From the IMG/VR virus record IMGVR_UViG_3300021957_003133, positions 1-64,000 of that record: 64,000 nucleotides of DNA. The stretch is one strand, 5' to 3'. Of the stretch, positions 9,865 to 42,800 are shown piece by piece. Position 1 is the stretch's first letter; every line of letters begins with the position of its first letter. A program made the translations under genes and the position numbers. This DNA comes from a virus. The notes under the pieces were generated by a model. The model was given only the letters and a program-made list of their open reading frames with translations. It did no database searches and was not told the origin of the DNA.

Positions 9865-10002
9865 TACGGTGAACTCCTTTTAAAAATAAAAATTTAAATC
9901 TTTGAAATCAAAATGTCTCATTTGTTCGTTATGTAATGTATTTAACGATTTATTTGGTTTTATAGGTTAAATGCGTTGTTTTTGATTGTTTTTGAAGGAT
10001 AA

Positions 10003-10227
10003 TTACAGCGAGGTTGCGTCTGATACTGGTGCTTTGTACTGATTACGCACTGTGTCTAACTTTTGTTCGTGTTCTAGTTTACGTACATCATTCATTATAC
10101 GTAGTCGATTTAACTGTTTTAATGTTAATTTAGTTTTACGTAGGTCATGGAGTTTGGCCACGGAGTTGTCGTCTTTTTCCGTTTCATAACCATGTGGTGC
10201 TGTTTCAAAAAATTCTAGTATGTTCAT
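10003..10227 (-). CDS. Small charged protein between portal and core genes
   Basis: From the ATG at 10227 the product has 74 residues, starting MNILEFFETAPHGYETEKDD, followed by a basic helical segment (LRKTKLTLKQLNRLRIMNDVRKLEHEQKL). A TTG five codons upstream at 10242 would also be in frame and sits 3 nt after the portal stop; I prefer the ATG because the sequence before it (VNTL) is short and the MNILEFF start looks like the true N-terminus of such proteins in related phages. Its position beside gp20 and the acidic core gene suggests a prohead core role comparable to T4 gp67, but homology is not clear to me. Confidence 0.65.
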   Translation of the reverse strand: MNILEFFETAPHGYETEKDDNSVAKLHDLRKTKLTLKQLNRLRIMNDVRKLEHEQKLDTVRNQYKAPVSDATSL

Positions 10228-10244
10228 AAGTGTATTTACCAATC

Positions 10245-14044: not shown

Positions 14045-14069
14045 GTGTTAAGGACTATTCAATTATATA

Positions 14070-14077
14070 TATTTATA
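14070..14077 (-). promoter_or_regulatory. Perfect late promoter TATAAATA (leftward)
   Basis: The plus strand has TATTTATA, giving TATAAATA on the minus strand, about 62 nt before the ATG of the tape-measure gene at 14007. Its transcript would cross the rightward motif, so the two late units overlap at their 5' ends. Confidence 0.7.
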
Positions 14078-14089
14078 GGATTTTCAACC

Positions 14090-14950
14090 ATGGAACAAAA
14101 CACTCCACAAGTTGCCTCAAGCAATCCGCTATCTAAGCATTTTAGACAGCCTGCGATTTATTTAAAGTTACCCAGTGATGGTAAGTACTGGACTAAAGAC
14201 TCTTTGTCTATACCACCATCTGGCGAAATTGGCATTATGCCAATGACTACCAAAGACGAAATAACTTTAAAAACTCCAGATGCACTGTTAAACGGGCAAG
14301 GAGTAGTTAATGTAATACAGAGCTGTTGCCCGGACATAAAAGATGCTTGGCAAATGCCTAGTATTGATGTTGATGCTACTCTTATCGCAATACGTATAGC
14401 TAGCTACGGTAATCAGATGGATTTCACTTCGCAGTGCCCACATTGTAAAACTGATCAGGATCATGCTATTGATTTAGGAGTTACCTTAGGAACTATTACT
14501 GCTCCTAATTACGAAGTTCCTTTAAAAGTTGACAGTCTAACCATACAATTACACCCACAGCCGTACTTTAGTCTTAATCAAACTAACATGATCGCATTTG
14601 AAGAACAGCAGATAGTTAGGAGTTTAGGTGAAGTAGAAGCTGATCCTATCGAGGCAAAAAAACGCTTTGACGAGCACCTTGCTAAAATAATCGATATGAA
14701 CATCAGCTTGCTAGGTAGTAGTACTAAATCTATCACAACCGAAGATGGTACTGTTGTCACTGATTCAGATCATATCAATGAGTTTTTTGCCAATGCTGAC
14801 ACTAAAGTTATTAAAAAAGTACAAGACTATCTCAAAGAACTCAGTGACATAGCCAACATTAAACCTGTTGGTGTTACATGTACCAACGAAGAATGCAGTA
14901 AAGAGTTTCCTATAAACATCACATTCGACTACGCAAGTTTTTTCGTATAA
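14090..14950 (+). CDS. gp26: Baseplate hub subunit, gp26-like
   Basis: I place the start at the ATG at 14090 (MEQNTPQVASSNPLSKHF), preceded by AGGA at a 9-nt spacing; an ATG at 14045 would add 15 residues but lies at the late promoter itself. The product has 286 residues. It contains FRQPAIYLKLPSDGKYW and MPMTTKDEITLKTPDALLNG, characteristic of the T4 gp26-type baseplate family in marine phages, and two cysteine pairs (CPHC near residue 120 and CTNEEC near 265) that could bind a metal. A helical segment with LGEVEADPIEAKKRFDEHL lies between them. gp26 acts in assembly of the central hub of the baseplate. The gp51-like gene follows after 5 nt, as in other marine T4-like genomes. Confidence 0.85.
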   Translation: MEQNTPQVASSNPLSKHFRQPAIYLKLPSDGKYWTKDSLSIPPSGEIGIMPMTTKDEITLKTPDALLNGQGVVNVIQSCCPDIKDAWQMPSIDVDATLIAIRIASYGNQMDFTSQCPHCKTDQDHAIDLGVTLGTITAPNYEVPLKVDSLTIQLHPQPYFSLNQTNMIAFEEQQIVRSLGEVEADPIEAKKRFDEHLAKIIDMNISLLGSSTKSITTEDGTVVTDSDHINEFFANADTKVIKKVQDYLKELSDIANIKPVGVTCTNEECSKEFPINITFDYASFFV

Positions 14951-15340: not shown

Positions 15341-15571
15341 ATGGAAGTATTAAAAAACATTCAGAAATGGAGTTCATCTATAGCTGACGTAGCTGTATCA
15401 CTAATGGCGATGTTTATCGTATTAGAACTACTTGGCGTAGGTAACATACCGTTTTTTCCAGAAGTTAACGTAATTGGTAACGTAACTGGAGTAGTTAAAT
15501 CTTTAGGAGCTGAAGGCTTAGTTGGTTTAATTGCAGTGTGGGTTTTATACACAATTTGGAATAAGAAGTAA
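15341..15571 (+). CDS. Small membrane protein with two transmembrane segments
   Basis: This 76-residue protein has two hydrophobic segments: about residues 13-34 (SIADVAVSLMAMFIVLELLG) and 56-72 (LVGLIAVWVLYTIW), ending in a basic NKK. The linker holds VGNIPFFPEVNVIGNV. The ribosome site is the strongest in the window (AGGAGG at a 7-nt spacing). It has its own sigma-70-type promoter, a structured leader and its own terminator, so it looks like an independently and strongly expressed unit. Two-helix proteins of this size include class II holins, but no lysis gene adjoins it and the family is not known to me, so function is open. A host-membrane role during early infection is equally possible. 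Confidence 0.75.
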   Translation: MEVLKNIQKWSSSIADVAVSLMAMFIVLELLGVGNIPFFPEVNVIGNVTGVVKSLGAEGLVGLIAVWVLYTIWNKK

Positions 15572-15607
15572 GAGAATATCCTTACACCATTTCCACAGAA
15601 TAAGAAG

Positions 15608-15634
15608 AAAGCACCTCAAGGGGTGCTTTTTTTT
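15608..15634 (+). terminator. Rho-independent terminator
   Basis: AAAGCACC (15608-15615) pairs with GGTGCTTT (15622-15629), with a six-base loop and eight T in a row (15627-15634), 37 nt past the stop of the membrane protein gene. Confidence 0.9.
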
Positions 15635-15639
15635 GGATT

Positions 15640-16162
15640 CACGTTCAGTGATAACCTAACAGATAGTCAAGTCATAGTTACTGCTAATAAAACAATTAAT
15701 CCATAGTTCTTTGGGCTTATTAAAGATGTCTACGACATCTAACTTCTTCGTTAACACTCGAAGTTCTTTTCTTAAGACTTAATTAATTTACTTTACTTTG
15801 ATATACTGTATGTTCTTACTTGCTTTATCTAGATCTTTCAGCCATACTTCACCTATACAAGGCAAAGTATGAAAGACACTTTATCTGAGTCTTACGCACA
15901 TACTAATTAAAAGAGATTGTTTTCATTAACACGGAGGCGGTCAGCCTGTACCCCCTACTCTAGCTTCATCTGGCGGATGCAATGATAGCCGTAATTAGCC
16001 AACTATCAAAGTCACGTAGGTTGCTTTTTCTCAGAGCCTACATCTTTTGGGGTTTAACCCTTTTGAATGCCATGTGTCGTCCTGTGTGTAGTCCTCTCTA
16101 CACGTTCCACGTGGTTACCCACGATCGCCTCAGGACACAGAATACATCTGCATCATTGACTG
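15640..16162. other. Gene-free region rich in stem-loops
   Basis: About 520 bases carry no convincing gene on either strand. Several clear inverted repeats are visible: AGATGTC/GACATCT with a 3-nt loop (15724-15740), AACTTC/GAAGTT (15741-15765), an extended hairpin CATACTT/AAGTATG with an inner CCT/AGG (15843-15871), GTAGG/CCTAC (16016-16041), and the three-way junction listed separately. The area from about 15930 on is visibly richer in G+C than the flanking genes. It separates the rightward late unit from the leftward replication operon. On the minus strand it would be the 3' end of the operon's transcript. No tRNA was recognised. Confidence 0.6.
16073..16139 (-). ncRNA. Candidate three-way-junction RNA element
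   Basis: TGTGTC (16073-16078) pairs with GACACA (16134-16139) and CTG (16082-16084) with CAG (16131-16133), enclosing two perfect hairpins: GTGTAG/CTACAC (16086-16103) and CGTGG/CCACG with a 4-nt loop (16110-16123). The pairing works on both strands; minus is chosen because it lies 24 nt beyond the stop of the leftward operon. Whether it is transcribed is unknown. Confidence 0.3.
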
Positions 16163-16612
16163 TTATATTTTGTTTAAATCTTCTACGAGAATGTTCTTTA
16201 CGGAACCAATGCCTAGTCTGACATTAATGATCCCATTGTAGTTATCATTTCTAAGTAAAACATGTTCATTGATCTGATAATACACTTCCATGTAGTTAGT
16301 TTCACCACGTGTTTTACACAAATAAAGTATTTCACGTGTGAACTTTTCTGAGCCTAGTTTTTCGATATCTTTTACGAGCCTATCGGATGAGCCATAATAT
16401 TTTTTCCAGTCAGTTTCGACTGTACTTCGTCTTTTATTTTTCTTGCCTTTTAGAGGTGGTCTCTTCTTGATTGTCCAGAAAAATTTACGACCTACGTAGT
16501 CGTGTCCATTCTCTGTGTTTGTGATCCTATATACAAAGCCATAGTTATCACCGATATCCTCAGACTCAAAAGGTTTGTTATTGTAAGTCCAAGGATTATC
16601 GTATGTTGCCAT
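16163..16612 (-). CDS. GIY-YIG-like nuclease family protein
   Basis: The protein has 149 residues. YGFVYRITNTENGHDYVGRKFF near residues 24-45 matches the GIY...YIG layout in degenerate form (GFV and YVG), followed by the expected downstream block DWKKYYGSSDRLVKDIEKLG and FTREILYLC. Similar genes in marine T4-like phages are called putative endonucleases. The catalytic Arg/Glu set is plausible (R42 in VGRK; the C-terminal E in NYMEVYYQINEH), but activity is not shown. The start ATG immediately follows the stop of the Hc1-like gene. It is the last gene of the leftward replication operon and borders the structured gene-free region. It could be a free-standing homing or repair nuclease. Confidence 0.65.
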   Translation of the reverse strand: MATYDNPWTYNNKPFESEDIGDNYGFVYRITNTENGHDYVGRKFFWTIKKRPPLKGKKNKRRSTVETDWKKYYGSSDRLVKDIEKLGSEKFTREILYLCKTRGETNYMEVYYQINEHVLLRNDNYNGIINVRLGIGSVKNILVEDLNKI

Positions 16613-16789
16613 TTACATTGAGTTCTTTTTGTCTTGAATTTCTGCACGTCTAGCCTTGGTAAGTTTACCTAAGTCACCTAGTGCTTTACGAGCTCTAGCG
16701 GCCGCGGCTTTTACACCCTTACCGTCAAATGTTTGTGATTCTGCTACGTATGTTTCTACTGCCGCTAAAATATCTTCATGAATTGACAT
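16613..16789 (-). CDS. Small histone-H1-like (Hc1-type) basic protein
   Basis: A 58-residue protein, MSIHEDILAAVETYVAESQ, followed by a lysine/arginine/alanine-rich helix: FDGKGVKAAAARARKAL, then KLTKARRAEIQDKKNSM. The pattern G-x-K-A-A-A-x-R-x-R-K-x-L...A-K-x-x-R-x-E-x-x-x-x-K resembles the N-terminal domain of the chlamydial histone H1-like protein Hc1 and of Hc1-like proteins I associate with marine phages. DNA binding is therefore likely but inferred. AAGGA lies upstream of the ATG. The next gene's ATG starts right at its stop, so the two are coupled. Confidence 0.75.
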   Translation of the reverse strand: MSIHEDILAAVETYVAESQTFDGKGVKAAAARARKALGDLGKLTKARRAEIQDKKNSM

Positions 16790-16810
16790 GTTAATTTTCC
16801 TTATTGATTG

Positions 16811-17068: not shown

Positions 17069-18172
17069 TTAGTTGGTTTCGTAACCAACAGCGTAATCGT
17101 GATCAACTATATCGCTACTACATTTGTATTGGCATTCTGTCCAACTAGTATTTTTGTTGTCTAGGTTATTAAAGAATGATTCCCAAATTGGATCATTTAA
17201 TACTTGTTCTAATGTTCTTTCAGTTAGATCTAATCGTGACTGATTTACAGTGAAGAAATCATCTTCAAAACTTATATGTTCAGCATTTGATGTTAGACTA
17301 CTGTAAGGTAATCCTTTCCAACTACAAGGGTATAATATTCCATTGGCATTAACATACATTCCCTGCGTGCCTATCAGACACAACGGAGTTATTGCACGAT
17401 TGTACTTATCCTGAACCTTATTAAAATGTATTTCTTTGGTTTTTATGTAGTCCGAATTGTCTAACTGCCTTGAAGTTATAGGAATCATTATCCTTTCATA
17501 CCTATTAGATGAGCTAACGAACTCTGCTCTGGGCTCTAAAGGATCAGTAGCACCACCATAAGTTTCATCATACTTGCTACCAAATTTAGTACTTTTAGTT
17601 AGCTGTACAGCATCACATCCCCTCTGTTTAGCTTCGTCGACGATGGCGTTGATTTTATCTTGATTGTATTTAAAAATAATAGTAGCCCAATGAACAAAAG
17701 CTGTTGACTCTTTGCTCATTATTTCCATACCTAACATTATGCTGGACCACGAACTGTTAATCCTATATATGTTGTTTGACTCTTCATCAAATCCGTCTAT
17801 GCTAAAATTTACAGTATCTCTGTCATTACTGATACTAGCAAACCGTTTCCACCACGCTTCATCCTTATAACTGCCGTTGGTTATAGTAAACAGATGTATG
17901 TCAGGGTTTGAAGTTTTAATGTATTCAACTATGTCTAGATACTCTTTGTTGTATATAGGATCCCCTAAATCACCACACATAGTAATACGTTTGACGGTGT
18001 TCTTTAACAGTTCGGGTGACAGTATTTTTTGGAACTCTGCTAGTGTTATATCACGGTTTAGTTTTAATTGATCCTTGTATTCTGTTCGAGGACAGCGAGG
18101 GCACTTCAAAGTACATTTGCTAGTGATACCAAAGTGCCAATGGTACAGTTGCCAAGGATATACTAAATTCAT
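17069..18172 (-). CDS. Radical SAM protein with C-terminal SPASM-like cysteines
   Basis: The 367-residue protein has the radical SAM CX3CX2C cluster motif at C20, C24 and C27 (KCTLKCPRCPRTEY), which holds the 4Fe-4S cluster that cleaves S-adenosylmethionine. MCGDLGDPI near residue 85 replaces the usual GGEP motif. Near the C-terminus PLCLIGTQGMYVNANGILYPC and WTECQYKC look like a SPASM/twitch auxiliary-cluster domain in the usual order, core first. Its start overlaps the stop of the SDR gene by 4 nt. Enzymes of this class modify peptides, sugars or other small molecules; the substrate cannot be told. It differs clearly from the other six radical SAM proteins of the window, where the auxiliary module comes first. 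Confidence 0.88.
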   Translation of the reverse strand: MNLVYPWQLYHWHFGITSKCTLKCPRCPRTEYKDQLKLNRDITLAEFQKILSPELLKNTVKRITMCGDLGDPIYNKEYLDIVEYIKTSNPDIHLFTITNGSYKDEAWWKRFASISNDRDTVNFSIDGFDEESNNIYRINSSWSSIMLGMEIMSKESTAFVHWATIIFKYNQDKINAIVDEAKQRGCDAVQLTKSTKFGSKYDETYGGATDPLEPRAEFVSSSNRYERIMIPITSRQLDNSDYIKTKEIHFNKVQDKYNRAITPLCLIGTQGMYVNANGILYPCSWKGLPYSSLTSNAEHISFEDDFFTVNQSRLDLTERTLEQVLNDPIWESFFNNLDNKNTSWTECQYKCSSDIVDHDYAVGYETN

Positions 18173-18798
18173 CGTGTTAAACTTATCTTAGTGATAAGAT
18201 TTTTTTTGTCATGTAGTATTTGATCAAACACAGGGATTAGGTCTTCAGTTTGCATATGAGACATTTGATCGTACAAGTCGTTGACTTTATCTTCCGGTAC
18301 ATTACCTCGATTACGATTAAAGTTTGTTTTAGTTAGTCCAGGATGCATTATTGTAAATCCTATGTTTTTATCTCGTAATTCGTATGATATAGTACTCATA
18401 AATGCGTCTAAACCGTGTTTACTTGTTCCATATACGCCGTATCCAGGATGGTACCCATCAACCACTTGACTACCTAATACAATGACTTTACTCCAAGGTT
18501 TAAACATACGTTGCTGTATATACTTGTGTATTAAAATAATATTGCTAGTAAGATTTACTGTCACAGTGTTGATAAAATCTGCAGATTTCATTGTAACAAA
18601 AGGAGCTCTTCCATTGGTATCTACACCAGCACATAATATTAAGTAGTCATAGGATTTAAAATCTACTGTGCTAATGTCCAAGTTTGCGAGATCTAATTCT
18701 TGTCGTGTTGGAGCAGTAACTTGGTAAGCATTACTTTCTAAGTGTTGTTTGAACTGTTTGCCAATGCCTGAACTACCACCTGTCAAAAATACATTCAT
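18169..18798 (-). CDS. Short-chain dehydrogenase/reductase (SDR)
   Basis: The 209-residue protein has the classical SDR features: TGGSSGIG near residues 6-13 for nucleotide binding, LILCAGV (NAG position, with C-A-G), a serine in VIVLGSQ, and the catalytic YGTSK (YxxxK), followed by HPGLTKTNF (PG motif). It is slightly short for the family (about 250). It should oxidise or reduce a hydroxyl or keto group with NAD(P). It begins at the last base of the gp46 stop and overlaps the next radical SAM gene by 4 nt, so it is embedded in the recombination operon. Joint action with the adjacent radical SAM enzyme on a sugar or nucleotide is a reasonable inference only. Confidence 0.9.
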   Translation of the reverse strand: MNVFLTGGSSGIGKQFKQHLESNAYQVTAPTRQELDLANLDISTVDFKSYDYLILCAGVDTNGRAPFVTMKSADFINTVTVNLTSNIILIHKYIQQRMFKPWSKVIVLGSQVVDGYHPGYGVYGTSKHGLDAFMSTISYELRDKNIGFTIMHPGLTKTNFNRNRGNVPEDKVNDLYDQMSHMQTEDLIPVFDQILHDKKNLITKISLTR

Positions 18799-20567
18799 TA
18801 GGCTAGCTCTACATCAGTGTCATACATAGTAAATCCGTTTTCTTTGACTACTGTCATAATGTTATTTACACGACCTGCCAATTCGTCTCTATGCGATACT
18901 AACCAAATCGATTTGTTATTCTCTCGAGCCATTTTCTTAAGTATACTCATAGCACTTTCGACACCACTAGCATCCATGCCTGAGTCAACTAATTCATCAA
19001 TGAACAACAAGTTGATTGGCTGATATAAACTTTCCCACACATCACGGAATGCCCAACTTAAACTTAATATCAATCTATTACGTTCGCCCCTTGACAGATT
19101 GTCAAAGTCTAAATCTCTACCTAGTTCGGTAATCTCAACAGTTAGATCATTCAGGAAGGTAACTGAATGGGGGAGACCTATACGATCAAGATACTGTCCT
19201 AGGCGAGCATTTAGATAACTCAAGTTCTGATCAATGATTCTCTTACGTACAAAACTATCTTTGTTTGTCAACAGTTTATACAAGAAGTCCTGATGCTCTT
19301 GCATACGTTGATATTCATTGATTTTATCATAATTAATTTCTTCTGCAGTCATATCTTCCATTTCTGCAATCTGTTCAACATAAGGATCTTCCTCTTTGGC
19401 TTTGCTAGTTAGCTGTGTTTCTAAGTTGGCCACGGAACTTCTATGATGGATAGCATCTTCGTGCTTAGGATAAAATGTTTTAGGTTTCTCTCCTAACTCA
19501 CCTAACTCAACCAACGCAGTTTCTAATTCCTCAAGTTCACCTTGATGTTTTTTATGCAGTGTGTCAGCTTCAGTGAAGCTATCTTGTTTACCTTGTAATA
19601 CTTCTTCGTGTTTTTCATCATGTAGTTCTTGCCCACATGCATAACATTTGTGTTCTCGTAACTGATCTATTTCACTTTGTAGTTTTTGCAGATTATTGTC
19701 TTCTCTCGCAACATCTTTCTTAATACGTACTGTTAAATTTGCAATTTCTGCAATTTCTGTTTCTTTTTTTGCATATTCTGCAAGATCTTTGTGTTGTTCA
19801 ATTTCACTATCAATATCAATTTTTAATAGTTCATCTAGTGCAGACTGTAACTCCTCTATTCCTTCCTGATGTTTTTTCTGCCATAACTGCTGTCTACGTT
19901 TTAGACTGTCAACTTGGCTTTGCATTTTGCTATTTGTTTCTTGTATACCTTTGATTTTATATTCTTCTTCTTTGATTAAATCACGTATACGTTTTTGTTC
20001 TTCTTTAAGACTTTCTGCTTTTTCACTCAGTACAGTGATACCTAATAATTGTTCGATTATAGCACGCTGATCGTTGGGTTTCAGTGAAAGGAAAGGCTCA
20101 GTATATGTGTTTAGTGCAACAACATGCTTGAACATTTCATGTTTCATGTTAAGCAGACGCTCAATCTCTGCTTGTGTTTCACGACTATCGCCTTGAGCAC
20201 TATCCTCTTGTTCTTGTTCTTCACCGCCTACATAAAACTTTAACACATTCTTTTTACGTCCACGTTCAATCTTATAGTCAACGCCATTGTGTTCAAAATC
20301 AACAGTGACTAACATAGCTTTGCCATTTGTTTTATTAACTAGGTTATCGCGTCTGATATTAGTTAATGCTACACCATAGAAAGCATATGAAAGGGCATTA
20401 ATGATAGTGGTCTTACCAGTTCCGTTACGGGCGCCACTATCATCGCCTCCGAGGTCTATATTCTTTCCTAATACCAATGTGAGGTCATCGCGGTCAAACG
20501 CCACTGCTTGTGTTGAATTACCAACACTCATAAAGTTTTTAACTGTTAAGTTCTTTATTTTAAACAT
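18798..20567 (-). CDS. gp46: Recombination endonuclease subunit gp46 (Rad50-like)
   Basis: The 589-residue protein is an SMC/Rad50-type ATPase. It has Walker A GARNGTGKTT at residues 45-54, long coiled-coil arms on each side of a central zinc-hook CxxC (HKCYACGQE, near residue 310), the ABC signature LSRGERNRLILSLSWAF, and Walker B plus D-loop INLLFIDELVDSGMD. With gp47 it processes DNA ends for recombination-dependent replication and degrades host DNA. Length is close to T4 gp46 (560). Its start overlaps the end of the preceding radical SAM gene by 8 nt. The separation of gp46 from gp47 by a radical SAM gene is unusual. Confidence 0.96.
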   Translation of the reverse strand: MFKIKNLTVKNFMSVGNSTQAVAFDRDDLTLVLGKNIDLGGDDSGARNGTGKTTIINALSYAFYGVALTNIRRDNLVNKTNGKAMLVTVDFEHNGVDYKIERGRKKNVLKFYVGGEEQEQEDSAQGDSRETQAEIERLLNMKHEMFKHVVALNTYTEPFLSLKPNDQRAIIEQLLGITVLSEKAESLKEEQKRIRDLIKEEEYKIKGIQETNSKMQSQVDSLKRRQQLWQKKHQEGIEELQSALDELLKIDIDSEIEQHKDLAEYAKKETEIAEIANLTVRIKKDVAREDNNLQKLQSEIDQLREHKCYACGQELHDEKHEEVLQGKQDSFTEADTLHKKHQGELEELETALVELGELGEKPKTFYPKHEDAIHHRSSVANLETQLTSKAKEEDPYVEQIAEMEDMTAEEINYDKINEYQRMQEHQDFLYKLLTNKDSFVRKRIIDQNLSYLNARLGQYLDRIGLPHSVTFLNDLTVEITELGRDLDFDNLSRGERNRLILSLSWAFRDVWESLYQPINLLFIDELVDSGMDASGVESAMSILKKMARENNKSIWLVSHRDELAGRVNNIMTVVKENGFTMYDTDVELA

Positions 20568-22092
20568 ATGATCTTAATTCTTTAAACTCAGGAAACATTT
20601 CAACAAAATTCTCGTTACGATACTGATCTTTCTCATCATTTAACCTAAAGAACTCTTTAAGCAAATGGCTTTGATTACTGCTGTTCATATATTGTAACAC
20701 ATCTTGCCACTGGGTTACAAGTTTTTCACTACCAGAAATACTTGTTAACCAATTAATGTGATCTGTTATTGTTTTGGTTGCTTGCTGTTTAAATACGTCA
20801 GGTAAGACTCTTAGATCAAAGTTGCTAGGACTAACGAGTGTGTTAATGATTAGCCTTGATGGGTCTAGTTTTTTATCTAGTATCCACTGTTTTTGTAGTT
20901 GCGGTAAATTAAAAATGTTTAACATATGAACAGTACTAAGAATACTAAAATCAACGATATTTTTTATTTTTTCGTAGTTTTGTTCTATCTCTTGGTATAC
21001 GGATCCACCACGAACGTATCCAGCCTGTGCTCCTATTAGATCTATACTAGCCCAAACCTCAACGTTAGAAAATTGTTTCCAGTAGTCTATCACATTGTGA
21101 TTTTTATACGTTACCTTGGTTAAATTTGTTGAATAAAGTAACTTAATATCTGTTCTGTTCCGTGACAATAATAAATCTAGTATTTGATAGTGTTCTCTCA
21201 TCAACAAAGGCTCGCCACCAGCAAAATATATTTGATCTAAATAATCTAGGTTGTCTCTAACATAATCAATAGTCTTAGAAATCTCTGCTGAGTTTAGTTT
21301 TAGTTCAACGTATCTGTCGTCATTATATATTTTCTTTTCTTCCTGTGCTATTTTACTGCTATACTTTCCGCTACACATCCTACACATTAGATTACATACA
21401 TTTGACGCACGAAAGTCTAGGTATCTAAACTTAAAATCCTCAAATGTTCCGTCCTCAAGTGTTTGCTCAACCAAGGGCAAGTATTTTTCAAAGACCTCGT
21501 TTGATCGTTGACGTTGAGATTTTATTTTTGAATCTTCTTTATGCCAACAGATTGAACAGGCATCGGGTCTTTCACCTTGTAGCATCTGCTGTCTGATCAG
21601 TTTCATTGGCTTACTGTTTGCAATGTCTGATAAATTGTCATTCTTGATTGAGCCAATATGGTATGCTTCGTCTGATGCACAACAAAGTCCTACACTACCT
21701 TGAGAATTAATATACATATGTACCCAAGGCAAAACACACACAGTGTCTTTGTTGACTGCGGTGTAGGTCTTTTCAAAGTTGCCCTCAATAATGAGATATG
21801 ACAATGCTTTATCGTGTGGGCAATACAAGTCTTTAATTTTTTCTAGCACTGTTTTTATTTCTTTATCTGTAGTTTCAACTGTTACAAAAAAATTAGGAAT
21901 ATCCAATGACGACAAAATCTCTTGTAGTTTTAAAACTGCTATTCCTGGTGATGTTGCTGTGTTAAATTGATCTGAGGTATATTGAATAGTTAATTTAAAG
22001 TCACTAGGCATTGGTTCTTTCTTCAAATCTTTTATTTGGTTGTATAACCAGACTTCACCCTTTGAGAAGTAATCGTCGAGATTAATGATCAT
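20560..22092 (-). CDS. Radical SAM protein with N-terminal SPASM-like module, between gp47 and gp46
   Basis: The protein has 510 residues. An N-terminal region of about 110 residues without recognised domain (MIINLDDYFSKGEVWLYN...) is followed by a SPASM-like cysteine module: C119 in CVLPWVHM, C137/C138 in GLCCAS, C179 and C182 in CSICW. The radical SAM core comes next, with C233, C237 and C240 (CNLMCRMC) and FAGGEPL. The C-terminus (FVEMFPEFKELRSYV) and several core phrases are nearly those of the protein at 59671-60990, so the two are paralogues. It overlaps gp47 by 4 nt and gp46 by 8 nt, and must be expressed with them. The substrate is unknown. Confidence 0.9.
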   Translation of the reverse strand: MIINLDDYFSKGEVWLYNQIKDLKKEPMPSDFKLTIQYTSDQFNTATSPGIAVLKLQEILSSLDIPNFFVTVETTDKEIKTVLEKIKDLYCPHDKALSYLIIEGNFEKTYTAVNKDTVCVLPWVHMYINSQGSVGLCCASDEAYHIGSIKNDNLSDIANSKPMKLIRQQMLQGERPDACSICWHKEDSKIKSQRQRSNEVFEKYLPLVEQTLEDGTFEDFKFRYLDFRASNVCNLMCRMCSGKYSSKIAQEEKKIYNDDRYVELKLNSAEISKTIDYVRDNLDYLDQIYFAGGEPLLMREHYQILDLLLSRNRTDIKLLYSTNLTKVTYKNHNVIDYWKQFSNVEVWASIDLIGAQAGYVRGGSVYQEIEQNYEKIKNIVDFSILSTVHMLNIFNLPQLQKQWILDKKLDPSRLIINTLVSPSNFDLRVLPDVFKQQATKTITDHINWLTSISGSEKLVTQWQDVLQYMNSSNQSHLLKEFFRLNDEKDQYRNENFVEMFPEFKELRSYV

Positions 22093-23105
22093 AAATTCCT
22101 ATAGATGTCTAACAATAGATTAGGATCATATGTATCGCTTTCTATGCTGGTTAATTGATTTGTTACGATAGTGTCTATAGACTCAAATGCTATGTTACCA
22201 AGCTGGATATCTTCGCCCATAGTAACTTCTTTGACTGGTAATAAACTTAGCTCTCTTAATTTGTACGTGTTAACAAATGTTTCTTTAATAAATGTTGCTT
22301 CTTCATATGAAATATCAATATCTAATTTAACACGACAATGCATACCTGGCTGTAGTAAATCTTCTGGCTTTTTAAGTACAGCACTTAGATCATAAACTCT
22401 ATATCTAGGTTGATCCGGCCATGCATGATGTACTGGTTTCTCTCCCCAAGCTAACACAGCCATACCTCTGTCATCATCTCCAGCATCTGCATAATTATGA
22501 GGAAAGCAGTTACCAACATAGGTAATGTTTTTGTTAGTTTGACGTTTGTGGAAATGCCCACTAAACATGTGCCCAACACCTTTGAAATGATCTCTTGATA
22601 TCTCCCCTACATCAGGCATTTGCACCATAGCATTCATATAAAAGCTAGGAAGTTCAAAGTGCCCAAACATATATTCAGCATCAATCTTTTGTACTTTCTT
22701 ATGATCATCGCCTACTAACCAAGGAACAAATGATACTCCACCTTCCTTGTAAAAGTCGTTGACTATTTCAATGTTCGGAATATGTCTCGCCCACTCTGCT
22801 GACTGTATGTCACGTTTATCTCTGTAGTACAAGTCATGATTACCAGGAATAAAGAACACACGATCAAATGCTTTACCTAACAGTTCAAGTGCCTGTAAGC
22901 TATAGTTTAATGTAACGATATTGATTGCGGCTCTGTTGTTGTGCCAGTCGCCCAGCATCAGACAAGTTTCACAACCTTCTTCTTTAGCTTTGGTAATAAA
23001 CCATTTTACAAAGTTCAAACAATCTTCGTTATGAGTCGTTGAGTTAGACTTTAACCCAAAGTGAATGTCTGTTAGAATTGCCGCTTTTTTAAATAGATTT
23101 GCCAT
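22089..23105 (-). CDS. gp47: Recombination endonuclease subunit gp47 (Mre11-like)
   Basis: The protein (338 residues) is a calcineurin-type phosphoesterase, partner of gp46. All metal-binding motifs are present: DIH (D13, H15), GDWHN (D53, H55, N56), GNHD (N89, H90, D91), GHFE (H149) and SGHFHKR (GHFH near 183-186). Length equals T4 gp47 (339). Its product provides the nuclease of the Mre11-Rad50-type complex. The start at 23105 lies only 6 nt after a TATAAT box, so either translation starts on a leaderless message or transcription comes from further upstream through gp55. AAGG lies 12 nt before the ATG. Confidence 0.96.
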   Translation of the reverse strand: MANLFKKAAILTDIHFGLKSNSTTHNEDCLNFVKWFITKAKEEGCETCLMLGDWHNNRAAINIVTLNYSLQALELLGKAFDRVFFIPGNHDLYYRDKRDIQSAEWARHIPNIEIVNDFYKEGGVSFVPWLVGDDHKKVQKIDAEYMFGHFELPSFYMNAMVQMPDVGEISRDHFKGVGHMFSGHFHKRQTNKNITYVGNCFPHNYADAGDDDRGMAVLAWGEKPVHHAWPDQPRYRVYDLSAVLKKPEDLLQPGMHCRVKLDIDISYEEATFIKETFVNTYKLRELSLLPVKEVTMGEDIQLGNIAFESIDTIVTNQLTSIESDTYDPNLLLDIYRNL

Positions 23106-23158: not shown

Positions 23159-24031
23159 TTATTCTTCGGCTCCGCCACCACCCCAGTTGTTTAGTCTGGT
23201 ATAACTAGGAGTAAAGTCGTTCATTTCTAATATGTCATCACGGATATTTTGATTTCGTTTTTCTATGTTAAGCACACGAGTAAACGAGTTAGTAATGGCC
23301 GCTGTGTAATAGGCAAACGGATTCTGACTTTTTGATTCGTCGAACTGTAAGCCAATTTGGCTTAACTGCAACAAAGCTTGACTACGCATCTCGTCGTTGT
23401 AGGTATAACCACGCCAGTTTGATCTAGTAGCATAACGCTCGCACAGTTTAATAAACATGTGTGCTAGTTTAGGTGTCATTGCTCCATGTTCTTTGTTAAA
23501 CTTACCTTTTTCTATAGTGCCTTTCCAATGACTTTTACCTGTGATATAAGGTTCCGAATCTTCATTGACACAGTAATGAAAGAAAGGAGGAAAGTTTACC
23601 TTGACATACTTGGTTGCTCCTTTGGCTTTTGACGGGTCATCATCATATTCTGTTGTTATAGCATCATCCTCAGCTTCGTCTATTGCTTTTTGATCTGCTT
23701 TAGCCTGTTTAACATCGTCAATTGGAATGTGCTCAAAAGTCATAACTCGAAACACGATGTCAGTTATTGGGATATCTTTAGTGGGTGTTAGTACTTCATC
23801 CATTTTCTTTTTGACACCCTCTAGTGCAAACTTTTCTATTTCTAATTTAGCCAACCTTTCTGCACGCATTTTCCTTGCTTCAGCAATGGTTTTCTTAGTA
23901 ATAGCATTTACATCCAACAGTATCATGTCATAGCTAGTAACTTCGGGCTTTACAAAGCTACAGTATGTGAGCTTACTCTTGTGAATTTCTTTTAGTATAT
24001 CTTTATTATTTAGATAATTAACTTTTCTCAT
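23159..24031 (-). CDS. gp55: Late-transcription sigma factor gp55
   Basis: This 290-residue protein carries the diagnostic C-terminal block of marine gp55: LLQLSQIGLQFDESKSQ then NPFAYYTAAITNSFTRVLN near residues 237-255 and EKRNQNIRDD. NPFAY.T....F.R is the sigma-region-2-like core-binding and promoter-melting segment also found in T4 gp55. It is longer than T4 gp55 (185); the N-terminal extension with MRKVNYLNNKDILKEIHKSK and FRVMTFEHIP is standard for marine homologues. gp55 directs host RNA polymerase to TATAAATA-type late promoters, and many such boxes occur in this window. It heads the leftward replication operon, divergent from gp48, with AAGGA before the ATG. Confidence 0.92.
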   Translation of the reverse strand: MRKVNYLNNKDILKEIHKSKLTYCSFVKPEVTSYDMILLDVNAITKKTIAEARKMRAERLAKLEIEKFALEGVKKKMDEVLTPTKDIPITDIVFRVMTFEHIPIDDVKQAKADQKAIDEAEDDAITTEYDDDPSKAKGATKYVKVNFPPFFHYCVNEDSEPYITGKSHWKGTIEKGKFNKEHGAMTPKLAHMFIKLCERYATRSNWRGYTYNDEMRSQALLQLSQIGLQFDESKSQNPFAYYTAAITNSFTRVLNIEKRNQNIRDDILEMNDFTPSYTRLNNWGGGGAEE

Positions 24032-33864: not shown

Positions 33865-36800
33865 ATGGCCGCAAGAAAAAGTATAAATTTACTACCTGGA
33901 GTATTTAGGACTGACGTTAACGAGAAGTTCCTGAATGCCACAGTGGACCAATTAGTCAGTGAGCCGAGCCTCACAGACCTTTATGGTTATATTGGTAGAC
34001 AATTTGCACCAACTTTTAAGAAAGGCGATAGCTACATCACAGAAGAAACAACATTACGCCAAGACTATCAGTTAGAACCAACTACAGTAATAAAAGATAA
34101 CGAAGGTAATACAACATTCTTTGCTAGTTATTTAGATTTTCTTAATAAGGTCAAATACTACGGCGGATATACTGAAGACCAAAGTAGATTGTTTGCTAGT
34201 GAATACTATAGTTTTGACCCACAAGTGTCACTTGACAAGTTTGTAAACTTTGGTCAGTATTACTGGTTACCCAATGGCCCGAGTACGGTACAAGTAAACA
34301 CAACTGGTGTTGAATTAATTAAAGATTATACAGTTAGTCGTAACGATAACCAAAATCAATATGATTTTACTTCATCTGGAGAACAAAATAATACATTGGT
34401 ATTAGCCAGAGGAGGTACATATACGTTCGCAGTAGATCAATCAGCTGGTTTTTGGATACAAACAGAACTAGGTATAGACGGACTAGTTAATGTTACACCA
34501 ACTATCTCTAGTAGAGCTGTATTAGGCGTAGAAAATAATGGTGCTACCAATGGTACCGTGACATTTACTGTGCCGCAATCAGACGCACAAGATAGATTCC
34601 TTTCACAAAATACGATAGCAACAGTTGACTATGCACTACCGTTACCATTCAGTAAAGTACAAAATAGATTACTAAGTGATTTCTTGGTAGAGTATCCACA
34701 GTTTGCTGGACTAGCTGGGCAATTAGATGGTAAGACAGCAGTGTTTGTAGAACAAGACACACTAACTAATGTAGAGAATGCTTGGACAGTAGCATACGAA
34801 AACAGCGGCGAGTCAGTTGAGTTTGATTTTGGTGAAACAGTTCCTCAAGGTAGTAGATATGGAGTATGGCAGATTCAATTGATTACTAGCGGGTCTGACA
34901 AACTTATTAATATATTCCCAACAACAGTTATTCCGTTCGACAATAAAGTTTACATTAAGTCTGGTATAAATTTTGTAAACAAAGAATTTTATAAAGAGTT
35001 CACTGAGTTTCTTGAACCAGTTCCGGTTATCAGCAGTATACTAGATACGTTATACATACAGGATGGTGATAGGGCAGATATCTACGCTAAAATTAAAATT
35101 GTAGACTTTAATAATTTTACCATTGATGTCAACGCAGATATTTTAGGAGAGAATACATATACTAGTCCCAACGGAGTAGAATTTACTTCAGGATTAAAAA
35201 TTAAATTCGACAGTGACGTTACTCCTACAACGTATCAGGAAAAAACATACTATGTAGAAAATGTTGGTGAAGGAATCAGACTTGTCGATGAAACACTATT
35301 AGTAACTCCTGAAACATACAACGACGAAGTAGCTACTAATTATCCAATACAAAGAATAATGCTTACTAAAGCAACAACTGCAGAAATTACTGCAGGTACT
35401 GTAATCACAGTTGGTGATAATTCCATCGAAGTAAACACTGATATAGCTATTGGTGCAACAAAAATAACAACACTTGATTCGATATCCGCAGTTGAAAAAG
35501 GTCAGGTAGTTACAGGTGCTGGAATACAATCAGCCACAGTGGTATATGATGCATTTGCAGATACTATATTCCCAGATTACATCACTATAAAAAGAGACGC
35601 ACTTGATTTAAATGCATGGTCACGTAGTAATCGCTGGGTACACAGTGCAATCATCGAAGCTTCAGCAACTTATAACAACGAGGTATTAGTTCTTTCACAA
35701 GACTTACGTGCTCAGCGTCCGATAGTACAGTTTGAAGGCGACTTGCAGTTATTTAATCACGGTCGTATTGGCAAAAGGCATGTCGACATAGTAGATACTC
35801 AAATCACAGACGCTTTTATAGAACTAGAAGGAAAAGTACTAACAACTGCTTTTGGAGTTACATTGTTTGACGGCATGAGAGTTTTATTTGCTAATGATAA
35901 TGATCCTTTAGTAAGAAATAAAATATATAATCTTAACCTAGTTCAATATGAAGTTGATGCAGAAGGATTTCCAGAAGGCACATTTCATATCAAATTAACA
36001 AAAGCTGATGATGGTGATGGTCAAGAATGGGATTCAGTTGTAGTTGGGCTAGGTGCGTCTAAAGGACATTCTTACTGGTATAACGGAACTGAATGGAAAC
36101 TAGCACAACAAAAAACAGGCACACAACAAGATCCTTTGTTTGATGTTTATGATACTGCAGGCAAAAGTTTAAGTAATCTTGATTACTACCCACGTAGTAG
36201 TTTTGTAGGAACAAAACTATTTGGGTACGACAGGGGAACTACAGGGGTCAATGACAAGATATTAGGATTCCCATTAAACTACAGAAGTTTTAGTAGTCAA
36301 GGCGACATACTCTTTGCTAATTATTTCAACACTGATATATTTAATTATGTGGTTGGATTAGAAACTAAAAAAATTAATGTAAACACCGGTTATCTGCAGA
36401 GCATACAAACTGACAGAACAACCAAACCTAAAAATACCTGGCAAACAGTCAATGAATCTAGTAGACAGTATCAGGTATTCGAGTTCGAATATACGGCCAC
36501 TACTGATAATCCTTTTGCATTAGACATCACTCCTAAACAACAAGATACTCATGGATTTACAGACACTGTACCCTACGTTAAAGTTTATCAAAATCAAAAG
36601 ATATTAAAACAAACACATTGGTCCATTAGTGCTACAAATAGAATAACTGTGTCAGCCACATTGGCTGTAGGTGATATTATAAATGTATTAGTGTACAGTG
36701 AACAGGTCAGTGAACAAGCATACTATCAAGTTCCTTTGAATTTAGATCTAAATGCACAGAACACAGACATAACAACATTAACTCTTGGGCAGGTTAGAAA

Positions 36801-39800
36801 CCATGTTGTGGCCCTGGGACAAAATAGTACAGCCTTAGTAGGTGATATACTTGGAAAATCAAATCTAAGAGATCTTGCAATTAAAGGCCAAGGCGGTAGT
36901 ATACTTCAACACAGTGCACCAATACCTTATGCTGAACTATTCTTAATTGACGAAAAAGCAAACTTCATCGATTCTATACAATTCGCACAAAGAGAGTATG
37001 CAAAATTTAAAAACAAGTTCCTGGAGCTAGCAATATCACTACCTGGGGTTGACTCGGCTGATGCTGTTGCTAGTGTCGACACAATCATAGCACAAATAAA
37101 TCTTAATAAAAATGTTTCAACTCCATGGCATTATAGTGATATGGTTCCAACTGGAACGTTGCGAGAAACTATAACATATAAAGTGTTTGATCCATTGGTA
37201 CTAAGTTACGAAATTACTAGCATATTTTCAAGCACAACATTAAGTAATCAAGCAGTACTAGTATATCTGAACGGAACACAACTAATACTAGGAAGAGACT
37301 ATTCGTTTGATACTACAAGGCCAGCAGTAGATTTTGATTCGAACTATGTGACATTCGCAGTCGATGATATTATTACAATAGTTGAATATGCAAACACCGA
37401 CGGATGTTATATTCCAGAAACTCCGAGTAAAGTAGGAACGTATCCAAAGTTTGAACCTGAACTAATCTTAGATGATACCTATAAAAGTGCAATAACAGTA
37501 ATTAGAGGGCATGATGGCAGTATTACTCCAGCATTTGATGACTATAGAGATAATCTTCTTCTTGAATTAGAAAAACGTATATACAACAATATTAAAATAC
37601 CTGATACAAACACGTACCAGACTGAATTACTAACAGCTTTACCTGGTAAGTTTAGAGATAGCGGTTACACATATTCTGAGGTATGGAACGCAGTGGCAAC
37701 GGGCTTCATGACATGGGTAGGAAAGAACAGAGTTGATTTCTCAACCAACAATACATTTTTAAGTAATGATCCGTTTTCGTGGAACTACTCAAGATTTGTT
37801 GATCGACTAGATCGAGAATACTTACCTGGTAGCTGGCGTGCAATTTATCAGTACTATTATGACACGATATACCCGCATCAGCGTCCATGGGAAATGTTAG
37901 GATTTTCATCGCAACCTGATTGGTGGGAGGACCGTTATGGTGTAGGCCCATATACAGGTGGAAACAAACTGTTATGGGATGATCTAGAAGCTGGTAAAAT
38001 ATATGGCGGACCGCGGTCATTGGTTGACATGGGATCAGGTGTTGGTATAGACACAAATTATGTGCGTCCAGGACTAAGCCAAATTATTCCAGTAGACCAA
38101 AACGGATACTTATTAAGCCCAGAAAAAGTAGTAGCTCTAGCATCAAACTCAACTGATGCCGCAACTAGTTGGTCAATAGGGCAACTAGGACCTACTGAAT
38201 GGGCGTGGAGAAGTAGTAGTGATTATCCGTATGTATTACAGCAAGCTATGGCAGTATTGAAGCCAGCAGTTTACTTTGGTAGATTCATTGATACTTACAA
38301 TATTCGTTACAATACTGATATCAAACAGTACTTAACACTAACTGACAAACATCATGTACAACAGGATGAGATTGTATACAATGGATACATAAACCCATTG
38401 ATCCCAACTGTTATTAATAGAGGTGCTGGTTATCTGAACTGGATAGCTGACTATTTAAGAAGTCACGGAGTAACACCATCAGTTAAAATTAATCCAATGC
38501 TAGAAAACTATAATGTGAAATTAGCATACAAGATGGCAGGTTTCAGTGACAAGAAGTATTTACAGGTCTTAGCAGAACAGAGCTCACCGTCGAGTACAAG
38601 TACTAGTATCATGATTCCAGATGAAAATTATGATCTACTATTGAATAAGTCAGCACCAACTGACAAAATAACGTACTCAGCTGTTATAGTTGAAAAAGCA
38701 ACAAATGGATTTACTGTCAGAGGATATGATTTACATATTCCTTATTTTACTATTATTCCAAGTGTCAGCAACAATAATTCGTATAGTATCAGCGTGCAAG
38801 ATGAGTCAGGAACGATATTCAATGATTATCAAAATGTAAAGCTAACTGTTCCATACGGATATGAATTTAAAACACAACAGCAAGTAGTCGACTTCCTAAT
38901 AGGGTATGAAAGATATCTAAAAGCACAAGGATTTACATTTAATGACAGAGATGGTGATCTCGCAGAAACACGCGACTGGAAATTAAGTGTTAAAGAATTT
39001 TTATTCTGGGCCCAACAAGGATGGAGAGAAGGTAGCATATTAGTTTTAAGTCCTGTTACAAATAGTATAAAAGTAGTTACAGAAAATAACATAGTTGACG
39101 GGATTGAGGATAGCCAATACGGAAGTAAGGTTGTAGATCAAAACTTTAACATAGTAAAAAATACTGGCTATCAGATTACTCGTACTAGCAATAACTTTAG
39201 TGTTACTCTGCAAGATGACAATATGCTAGCATTGGTTCAACTAAGTTTGGTACAGTACGAACATGTACTAGTATTTGATAATACTACAGTATTCAATGAT
39301 GTAATATATCGACCTGAACTAGGTAATAGACAATTTAGATTAAAGTTGATTGGCCAGAAAACTAATCTTTGGGACGGTAGTTTGTATGCTCCAGGATTTG
39401 TTTATAACGACGAACTAGTGCCAGAATGGCAAGTTGGTGTTGATTATCTTAAGGGACAACTAATAGAATTTAAAGATCAATACTACGTAGCTCTAACAAA
39501 TGTTCCAGGAGCAACAGAGTTTAATTTTACAACATGGAAACAAATATCCAAATCAGAAATTAAGTCAGGACTACTTAGTAACTTTTCAACCACCGCGGTT
39601 GAATCACAAAGTTACTACGACAGCTATGGCGAGATCAAAGATAAAGATCAAATGGCATACAGTCACGGATTGATTGGGTATAAACCAAGACAGTATCTAG
39701 ACGACCTAGGATTAACTGAAACAACACAGATTGAATTTTATAAAGGTTATATCGGACAAAAAGGCACAAAGAATGCAATTGATGCATTGTCTAAAGCAGA

Positions 39801-42800
39801 TTTTGATACACTGAGTAGTAAAATTAGTTATTATGAAGAGTGGGCTATACGTACAGGAGAATACGGAGCGATAGCAAGTAATCCTTTTGTTGAAATAGCT
39901 CTTGATGAAAAAGCAATATCAGTTAATCCTGCAACTATAAAATTTGTTGGTACTAATGATGCAAACGACGGAAACGGAGAAACAGTATTTAATCAAAGTC
40001 AACTTTATAAATTCTTGGACGGAGAAGGTGCTAAATTCAACGGCAACATTGCATTAAACAGAGACAGTGCAAGTAATTACGATAACGATATATTAACTGC
40101 TGGTTACGTTAATATAGATGATATAGATGCGACGGTATATGATATTAGTGATTACTCAACACTAAACGTATTAGCTGATGATATAGGAACAGGATATTCA
40201 ATATGGACTGCTAAAGACTTCAATGGTAACTGGAATGTCTATAGAGTATCTGAATCAGATAATCAAGTAACAACATTAACTAATGCTTTGGATGGATATG
40301 TTACTTGGACGTCAAGCGAACAGCACGGTCTCATTAAAGACAACATATTTTTAATACGTGGCTTTGATGATAAATTTGATGGCTTCTATCAAGTATATAG
40401 TGTACCTGATCTTAAGAGAGTTACATGCCAGTATCTTGGCAACAGTGAAAATTTAGATACCTTAAACACAGCCAATGGTCTTGGAATACTGTTTGTGTTA
40501 GATAGTCTAAGATTCCGATTTATGGAAGATGCAAGAATCTTTGGATTAACCAACCCTAAGCAAGGGTGGCGCACAGGTGATAAGATATGGATTGATGAAG
40601 ATGCCGCAACCACAGTAGAACAAGGACAACCGTATGATGTAGCTAGTGGCGGATGGAAAGTATACGAAAAAACTAATCCTTGGAATTACAAAGAAACATT
40701 ATTAAAGTCTAGTTCAGAATATAAAGCTGATGATGGCTTTGGTACAGCAGTTAAACTCAGCTATGACGGATTATTAGCAACAGTAGGAAGTCCTTTTGCA
40801 AACACTACACCTTACTATAGCGGTGGTGTTGAAGAAGTAACCGGAAAAGTTAATGTCTTTAATAAAGACTATGCAGGTAATTTACTGGTAGCCACTTCTT
40901 TAATACCTAAATCTGGTAACGCACAAGTGACTACAAGAGAATATGGTAGCTGTGTTGACCAAGCAGTTGAAAAAGTTGTTGTTGGTGCTCCGGGCAGTTA
41001 CGGGAACATAGGACTAGTTTATCTTTACAATAGACCAGCCGGAACTACAGAGTTTGAAGAGCCACAAATAATATGGAGTAAAGATGTTACGGCTACCGGA
41101 GATAGGTTTGGATCTAGTGTATCACTTAGTGAATATGGTGATTGGCTATATGTAGGTGCTCCAGGCAATGACAGAGTATATGTTTACGGATTAAACACAC
41201 ACGTATCGAAAGAAAAAGATACTGTAGCAATCAACAATCGCAACACTTTAAGACTCAGTGGAAACACAGCAGTGTTCCCAGGAGATTTCATTACATATCC
41301 TGTAACAGGTGCAAACGCCAACGTTATCTCGTCTGGTAACACATTTGTTGGGTCAAGCTGGGGTTCAAATATCGTAGTCAATACTGGAGTTGGATTTGAC
41401 ACCGGAAATGCCAATGCAAATGTAAGTATTAATTCAGTTGACTCGACTCTATATGCGACCAATCTTTACAGTGTATCAAATATTAGTAATATTAGAACAT
41501 CATTTACCCCAACAGTGTCCGGACAAGCTGATTCATTATTGGTTAGGAATTCAAACAGAACGTTTATCCCAGAACTAGATTATACACTTAGTGGAAATGT
41601 AATTACGTTCACTGGTAACTTAGCAGAGGATACTTATGTAATAACACAAGCACCTTACTATGTATTATCGAATACTATTCAAGGTGAAACAGGTAGTTCC
41701 TTTGGTTCTTCTATGGACTCAAGTCTCGATGGTGCCCAACTTGGTGTTGGTGCTCCTAATGCTAACGTTTTTGTAAGCGGCCAATGGATCCAAGGTGCTG
41801 GTGCTGTTTATGTATATGATAGAGTCATTGAAGCATTTAAGACTACAGGATCAATAACGTATACAACAACAGGAACTATTGATTTGGTACACAAAGTACA
41901 AATTGACGGAGTCACTGTTGAAGACTATGTTCCACCTACCATTGGCGGAACCACATTAACATTTATTAATCCTCCTCCTATAGGCAAAGTTGTTTACATT
42001 GAAACAAACGAATTTAATTTACTAGAAGAGTTAACTGGTATTGACAGCTTAGAAGGTGGAAATACAGCAATACAACAAGGTGCGGCATTTGGTACTGACT
42101 TAACTATTTGTTCAAACAACTGTGCGATTTATGTAGGTGCTCCGTATTATGATAACGGAACAGCATACAACACAGGAGCAGTTTGGAAATTCCACAACAG
42201 AGGTAGACTGTACGGAACTAACACAGGTGATATAAAAAATCCAACATTTACACCAGGCGACACTATACGCTTAGATAACTTTGAAATAACAGTTACAGGA
42301 ACAACACTAGACAGTTTAGTTAACGATATTAATTCAGCCGCGATTGTTGGGCTAGTAGCTAGTAACGAAAATGGATATCTTAAATTAGATACAGATTCGA
42401 CTGTAGCCAAAAACTTATTAAGGATACTGTCAGGAAGTGATAACGGTGTGTTACTGGATGCTGGTATTAAAGTATTTGCATTTATGCAAATCATAGTAAG
42501 TCCATATAATACCCAAGGTGAATACTTTGGTAACAAAGTAGTGCTGGCACAAAATGCTTACATGTTAGTGATTGGTAGTGAACGTGGTACTACTAAGAGT
42601 CCACTTACAATAGATACTGATACATTAACATTAGATGATGATAGTACAATCTTTACAGATGATATCGTTGGTAGTGGTAGTACTTACGTTTATGAATTAT
42701 ATGATGATCCTAGAGACGAAGTAGAAAATCCAGGGAGATATGCATTTGCTCAGCAATTGATAGTTCCAGATCTAGATGGTAATGTGCAAACTCCATCAGA

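Follow-up and report, generated by a model that had tools for sequence, protein, structure and literature searches.

A conserved structured RNA beside the baseplate hub gene of very large phages

Why should a compact phage genome keep more than 500 bases free of genes? The question is raised by a tract within the 64,000-nucleotide stretch of virus DNA analysed here (positions 1 to 64,000 of IMG/VR record IMGVR_UViG_3300021957_003133; hereafter the window). The original prediction placed the tract at 15640–16162, described it as rich in inverted repeats, and offered three explanations: an untranslated RNA, a replication origin, or a processed 3′ end of the leftward operon.

The gap and the RNA within it

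The gap is real, although its proposed start at 15640 was arbitrary; it runs from 15572 to 16162, between a plus-strand gene that ends at 15571 and a minus-strand gene that ends at 16163. No ORF of at least 40 aa lies wholly inside 15660–15981, and a 79-aa plus-strand ORF (15982–16221) overlaps the conserved RNA described below. All other gaps had been put at less than about 170 bases; one of them, 9865–10244, measures 380 nt unless a 79-aa TTG ORF (10003–10242) is a gene. Both inverted repeats that had been singled out are present, the 7-bp stem with a 3-nt loop at 15724–15740 and the extended hairpin (given as 15843–15871) at 15842–15872, but the supposed difference in composition did not hold up, with a GC content of 0.392 in the tract and 0.373 in the window. 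A comparison with shuffled sequence had also been proposed; by single-sequence folding the tract is better than its shuffles only marginally on either strand (minus strand, z −1.90 with 3/100 shuffles as good; plus strand, z −1.86 with 6/100), so that this test alone would not settle the structure. Covariation does.

With the neighbouring GIY-YIG protein as query, IMG/VR yielded 27 loci, and in the closest of them the gap is conserved, with 76–100% identity over ~450 nt where the sequence is long enough. A 21-base degenerate pattern of the core matched at least 119 viral stretches; four bacterial contigs that also matched are chance hits in unrelated context and were dropped. Sequences that extended less than 300 nt to either side were removed, as were duplicate and near-identical members (132 to 104 to 76 to 66); the full element was aligned in the remaining 66 non-redundant IMG/VR homologues of 407–499 nt (alignment A3).

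The RNAalifold consensus has 68 pairs, and 43 of these show one or more compensatory double changes. Before pairs were counted, helix 11–13/608–610 and two pairs of a helix (306–328 and 315–322) were dropped or replaced, while two pseudoknots, recognised by eye, were inserted, and the structure tested is therefore partly derived from the same alignment; with this proviso, its 74 pairs are paired in 95.8% of cells across the 66 sequences, and 50 of the 74 have changed on both sides, in 653 cells, as compared with shuffle means of 30.5 and 187. None of 500 shuffles reached the observed covariation values, and pairing falls to 33–41% when the partner is slid by 1–3 columns. The second pseudoknot has 7 pairs, with 99.1% of cells paired and 6 pairs changed on both sides; the weak spot is a pair of helix Pa, columns 285/320, which is C-A in 53/66 window-clade sequences. 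Several G-U pairs are conserved, for example in 61, 64 and 66 of the 66 sequences at three pairs; these would be C-A mismatches on the opposite strand, which identifies the minus strand as the RNA. We conclude that the tract almost certainly holds a conserved, functional structured RNA, in strong support of the first of the three explanations, and the observation is larger than was supposed.

The RNA has its 5′ end at 16162 and its 3′ hairpin near 15724, and it would end the leftward operon. Its parts, from 5′ to 3′, and a neighbouring hairpin are:

15722–16162, minus strand: structured RNA of ~440 nt (alignment A3 and pair counts)
16079–16136, minus strand: 5′ three-way domain (helices 1–3)
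16132–16136 with 16079–16083, minus strand: closing stem of the three-way domain
16110–16123 and 16086–16103, minus strand: hairpins of the three-way domain
16015–16042, minus strand: long hairpin (helices 4 and 5) with conserved internal loop CTCTGAGAAAAAGC
15984–16007, minus strand: hairpin (helix 6) whose loop is one side of the second pseudoknot
15903–15998, minus strand: second pseudoknot, loop 15992–15998 with 15903–15909
15932–15977, minus strand: core H-type pseudoknot, invariant and common to the jumbo-phage relatives
15970–15974 with 15940–15944, minus strand: core helix Pa
15951–15955 with 15933–15937, minus strand: core helix Pb
15879–15891, minus strand: 13-nt motif copy 1, GACTCAGATAAAG, which changes in step with copy 2
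15842–15872, minus strand: 13-bp hairpin (helix 12)
15823–15835, minus strand: 13-nt motif copy 2, GATCTAGATAAAG, whose 5′ part also pairs with 15959–15963
15724–15740, minus strand: 3′ hairpin AGATGTC-GTA-GACATCT (helix 13)
15604–15636, strand not given: hairpin with a T run, for the rightward operon, read from the sequence

Within the last of these a scan placed a weaker minus-strand terminator-like site.

The two 13-nt motifs flank the 13-bp hairpin (helix 12) and, across the 66 phages, carry the same letter in both copies at their variable positions: columns 425/491 are AA in 34 and GG in 32, columns 429/495 AA in 38 and GG in 26, columns 431/497 AA in 34 and TT in 29, and columns 420/486 GG in 26, TT in 19, CC in 11 and AA in 4. 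The 8-mers of the motifs are identical in 37/66 sequences, against a mean of 11.8 and a maximum of 20 in a shuffle that ignores relatedness, and in a scan of all offsets the motif pair ranks first (2.09, with the next separate pair at 0.86). Part of copy 2 is paired with columns 297–301, which may constrain that copy. Direct repeats that change in step suggest one shared partner.

Genomic slot and relatives in jumbo phages

Context was scored in 118 loci of the pattern scan among the matches listed, and the denominators given here are the loci with enough sequence. The genes concerned are, in the window:

14045–14950, plus strand: baseplate hub gene (phrog_150), convergent with the RNA
16163–16612, minus strand: SegE-type GIY-YIG endonuclease ORF (Pfam PF19835, E 4.9e-40), abutting the 5′ end of the RNA
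18798–20567, minus strand: SbcC-like (gp46-like) gene (phrog_77) of the leftward operon, upstream of the RNA
22089–23105, minus strand: SbcD-like (gp47-like) gene (phrog_100)
23159–24031, minus strand: late sigma factor (gp55-like) gene (phrog_12791)

Among the matches listed, all 78 scoreable loci have the hub gene past the RNA and on the other strand, with the RNA transcribed toward it, the SbcC-like gene is upstream of the RNA in 34/34, and a 669-aa structural gene is in place in 51/59. The GIY-YIG gene is present in 94 of 103 of these listed loci and absent from 9, and in one locus (L013) an 810-nt gene stands between it and the RNA; the RNA is thus an element of its own and the endonuclease is optional.

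Several other features of the neighbourhood were noted. The label 'NAD synthetase' that PHROG family 447 and several cyanophage records give to the SegE GIY-YIG protein (16163–16612) is probably mistaken. Interspersed with the recombination genes and the RNA are radical SAM proteins (17069–18172 and 20560–22092) and a short-chain dehydrogenase (18169–18798), and 16613–16789 encodes a 58-aa protein with a Pfam Hc1 (histone H1-like) match. Farther away, 33865–47442 is one open frame of 4525 aa.

With the RNA as query, blastn against INPHARED returned one 32-nt match, to a microvirus, and none for the homologous locus L040, and isolates were therefore reached through the hub and portal proteins, which point to the jumbo phages PA5oct, Phosso, Atu_ph07, 121Q and RaK2. 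In 121Q, Munch, GAP32, CBB, BF and Hallingskeid the order is portal or structural protein, hub, gap, endonuclease VII, followed beyond the gap by gp46 and, in several records, gp47 and a sigma factor, an arrangement that resembles the window. The hub-slot gap of these RaK2-group phages holds an unannotated element of ~430 nt with the same pseudoknot core; in Hallingskeid small hypothetical proteins have been called inside it. Blastn with the 121Q gap gave matches in 41 phage records, in most of them at several places, and RaK2 has no copy at the hub and three elsewhere.

The core common to both clades reads CCG-[Pa]-...-[Pb]-...-[Pa′]-CCGC-[Pb′]. In a joint alignment that was fitted to the Pb helix (A6, 51 distinct rows) it is 96.5% paired, 9 of 10 pairs have changed on both sides, no shuffle of 500 matches it for pairing or covariation, and slid controls reach 29–59%; in the jumbo copies alone, pairing is 98.6%. 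The jumbo-phage set comprises 33 copies, 30 of them in alignment A4 and 23 in A5. Just 3′ of the RNA, most of the jumbo copies aligned carry a conserved C-rich/G-rich hairpin that is followed by GATGAAA and CGTCA motifs.

Profile searches differed in their reach. A DNA profile of the window's clade missed the jumbo gaps when these were searched as whole loci, and against the 33 extracted copies it matched two (L162, E 8e-4; L202, E 0.022). A covariance model of jumbo copies only, run on 30 window-clade loci, found the exact core only in L050 (0.0031), L052 (0.13) and L080 (0.6), of which the first is significant, and did not find the element of the window itself. We then built a covariance model, R2, from the jumbo copies and these three divergent relatives, and its test is therefore independent only for the other 28 sources; in all 28 it found the core (E 8.6e-6 to 0.0041). 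R2 recognised the core in the window at E 5.2e-5, which places it in the family of the jumbo-phage hub-slot RNAs, and gave no other match up to E 1 in 385 kb. Among 44 further loci from a 17-base pattern, which is short and expected to give many chance hits, the full core was present in 5, and 4 matched in part (E 0.0067).

R2 gave no match at the hub slots of PA5oct, Atu_ph07, Phosso and RaK2. Weak hits in PA5oct and Atu_ph07 both lie inside coding genes and were rejected, and none was found in Phosso. Long gaps without annotated genes occupy the same hub slot in Phosso (L157:3760–4773) and PA5oct (L155:10518–11180); they do not match the RNA model and possibly hold other RNAs.

Taken together, comparison among relatives shows the minus-strand identity of the RNA, its two-pseudoknot fold, its conserved slot between the hub gene and the recombination genes, and its homology to the multi-copy RNAs of the RaK2 group.

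Transcription, copy number and possible functions

Our preferred reading, to which we give a probability of about 60% as a whole, is that the tract is a ~440-nt minus-strand noncoding RNA gene of a jumbo-myovirus family, whose product would act in trans as an RNA or a ribonucleoprotein.

How the RNA is made appears to differ between clades. TATAAT is found upstream of all 33 jumbo copies, and TGnTATAAT upstream of 32/33, as compared with 1.9% of shuffled stretches. In the window's clade only 3/66 members have TATAAT within 150 nt upstream of the RNA, and in 57/66 the stop codon of an open frame, 60 codons or longer, falls within a few nt of where the RNA begins (one at −20). The RNA would be a stand-alone gene in the RaK2 group; in the window's clade it would form the 3′ end of the leftward operon transcript, from which it may be cut free. 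The suggestion of a processed 3′ end fits the position of the RNA in the window's clade in this respect, but not the promoter-like boxes of the jumbo-phage relatives. Were the element simply the 3′-end structure of the operon mRNA, protecting it from decay or ending transcription, the adjacent frame ends, the 3′ hairpins and the convergent genes would all be accounted for. However, the elaboration and conservation of the RNA go far beyond what a terminator requires, its 3′ hairpin is mostly without a T run after it in relatives, and the RaK2-group copies, with their own box, stand in several gene neighbourhoods; we consider this reading quite improbable.

The copies themselves are unusual in number and arrangement. 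The covariance model found five in 12 of 13 jumbo records (three of which are probably the CBB, GAP32 and BF genomes) and four in the remaining one, and there are four in 121Q and three in RaK2; within each record every copy is on one strand. Neighbouring copies are 44–86 kb apart (GAP32, CBB, BF, XbC2, Munch, Hallingskeid and the IMG/VR jumbo records). The coefficient of variation of the spacing is 0.08–0.21 in the 12 five-copy genomes (P 0.0001–0.0042 each against random points on a circle, where the genomes are related, their ends uncertain and the test chosen after the positions were seen), 0.02–0.03 in four-copy genomes and 0.23 in RaK2. In a tree the copies mostly group by genome position (support 1.0 for position 2 and 0.998 for position 1), so most have been kept separately; the exceptions (121Q 247k grouped with the hub copy, and CBB position 1 with position 5) resemble the outcome of within-genome conversion.

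Multiple copies and the extended −10 box of the RaK2 group would suit the high dosage of an RNA that serves as a decoy or regulator, titrating either a host factor or some component of defence, and the 13-nt motifs do differ between related phages. The core is nevertheless conserved far beyond a decoy's need, and the local flanks yielded neither a partner nor a target for the motifs, with 60 complementary sites against 54–67 for mismatched motifs and hence no enrichment; we regard a decoy as highly improbable.

A replication origin was also among the explanations proposed. R-loop origins of T4 and ColE1 RNA II are precedents for an origin RNA, whose transcript would here prime or mark replication in cis, the spaced copies being several origins per genome; iterons, which are direct repeats, offer a likeness for the co-changing motifs. 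What keeps this reading alive is the regular spacing of the copies that relatives carry, together with the retention of copies by position, the recombination genes adjoining the hub slot, and the TGAAACG/TATA promoter that by eye, uncounted, precedes some copies and that the available text of the CBB paper links to DNA-synthesis genes. Nonetheless, the window's clade has one credible copy in each of five records of 88–250 kb, some of which may be fragments (the second match in the window, at 56908, has an E value of 0.42), and such extensive covariation points to a folded RNA that is more than a primer. An origin RNA is in our judgement doubtful.

Even spacing is, all the same, not what a purely trans-acting RNA needs, and it counts against one. 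The marginal single-sequence folding, the lack of a motif partner in the local flanks and the failure to find a homologue in PA5oct, Atu_ph07 or Phosso also weigh against our preferred reading. A further reading, which we think unlikely, is that the copies are evenly spaced RNA stations on jumbo-phage genomes, each recognised through the in-step repeats by a phage-specific partner and serving in cis in replication or genome organisation. Under the trans-acting reading that we prefer, the RNA would work, with some uncertainty, as a folded RNA or a ribonucleoprotein scaffold; the invariant pseudoknot core would be its working part, the two 13-nt motifs would dock a phage-specific partner, and the extra copies in the largest genomes would either increase the amount of the RNA or distribute it around the genome.

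Comparison with known RNAs

No Rfam 15 family reached its gathering score in the window, and relaxed E-values gave only chance-level matches. Models of GOLLD and ROOL gave none up to E 10 for 15560–16800 and none up to E 1 in L155, L157–L159 or 18 jumbo-phage loci, and ARAGORN and Rfam found no tRNA-like domain (tRNA or tmRNA) in the window. Among RNAs that adjoin an endonuclease gene, HEARO/IscB omega RNA was rejected, as the neighbour here is a SegE GIY-YIG protein that is absent from 9/103 of the loci listed and there is no Rfam match. Group I and II introns are large folded RNAs that can lie near homing endonucleases; these too were rejected, with no Rfam match, no split exons seen and a complete upstream ORF.

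In the literature searched, which lay outside bioRxiv and was in part available as partial text, we found no published description of the RNA; the available text of the CBB paper describes the TGAAACG/TATA promoter class and leaves the RNA out. ICP1 makes an abundant noncoding transcript of ~800 nt from an ORF-less gap (PMC7567579). Both RNAs are large and occupy such a gap, and they are set apart by size, position and phage as far as the accessible description goes.

Closest in kind are GOLLD and ROOL, large structured noncoding RNAs borne by phages, with functions unknown and, in ROOL, several pseudoknots (PMC12286853, available text). The present RNA is like them in being a large structured phage RNA with pseudoknots, and is smaller: the same text gives 659 nt for one ROOL and more than 800 for many GOLLD, as compared with ~440 nt here. 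It also differs in adjoining the hub gene and in its 3–5 copies per genome in relatives; GOLLD and ROOL are often, hence not strictly by definition, near tRNA genes, and the window has no tRNA.

The list of known large structured phage RNAs is short, and what they do is an open question. The RNA described here, which has no Rfam entry, is a new family within this loose kind; its covariation is strong, and it occurs both in unclassified phages from the environment and in cultured enterobacterial jumbo phages. One of the latter, Sharanji, is recorded on E. coli K-12 MG1655, so that laboratory tests of the RNA's function are feasible. It is unusual to find five evenly spaced copies per genome as well as in-step repeats, and these features yield direct predictions. 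Judged from comparative data, this is a folded RNA that very large phages have long retained, some of them in five evenly spaced copies.
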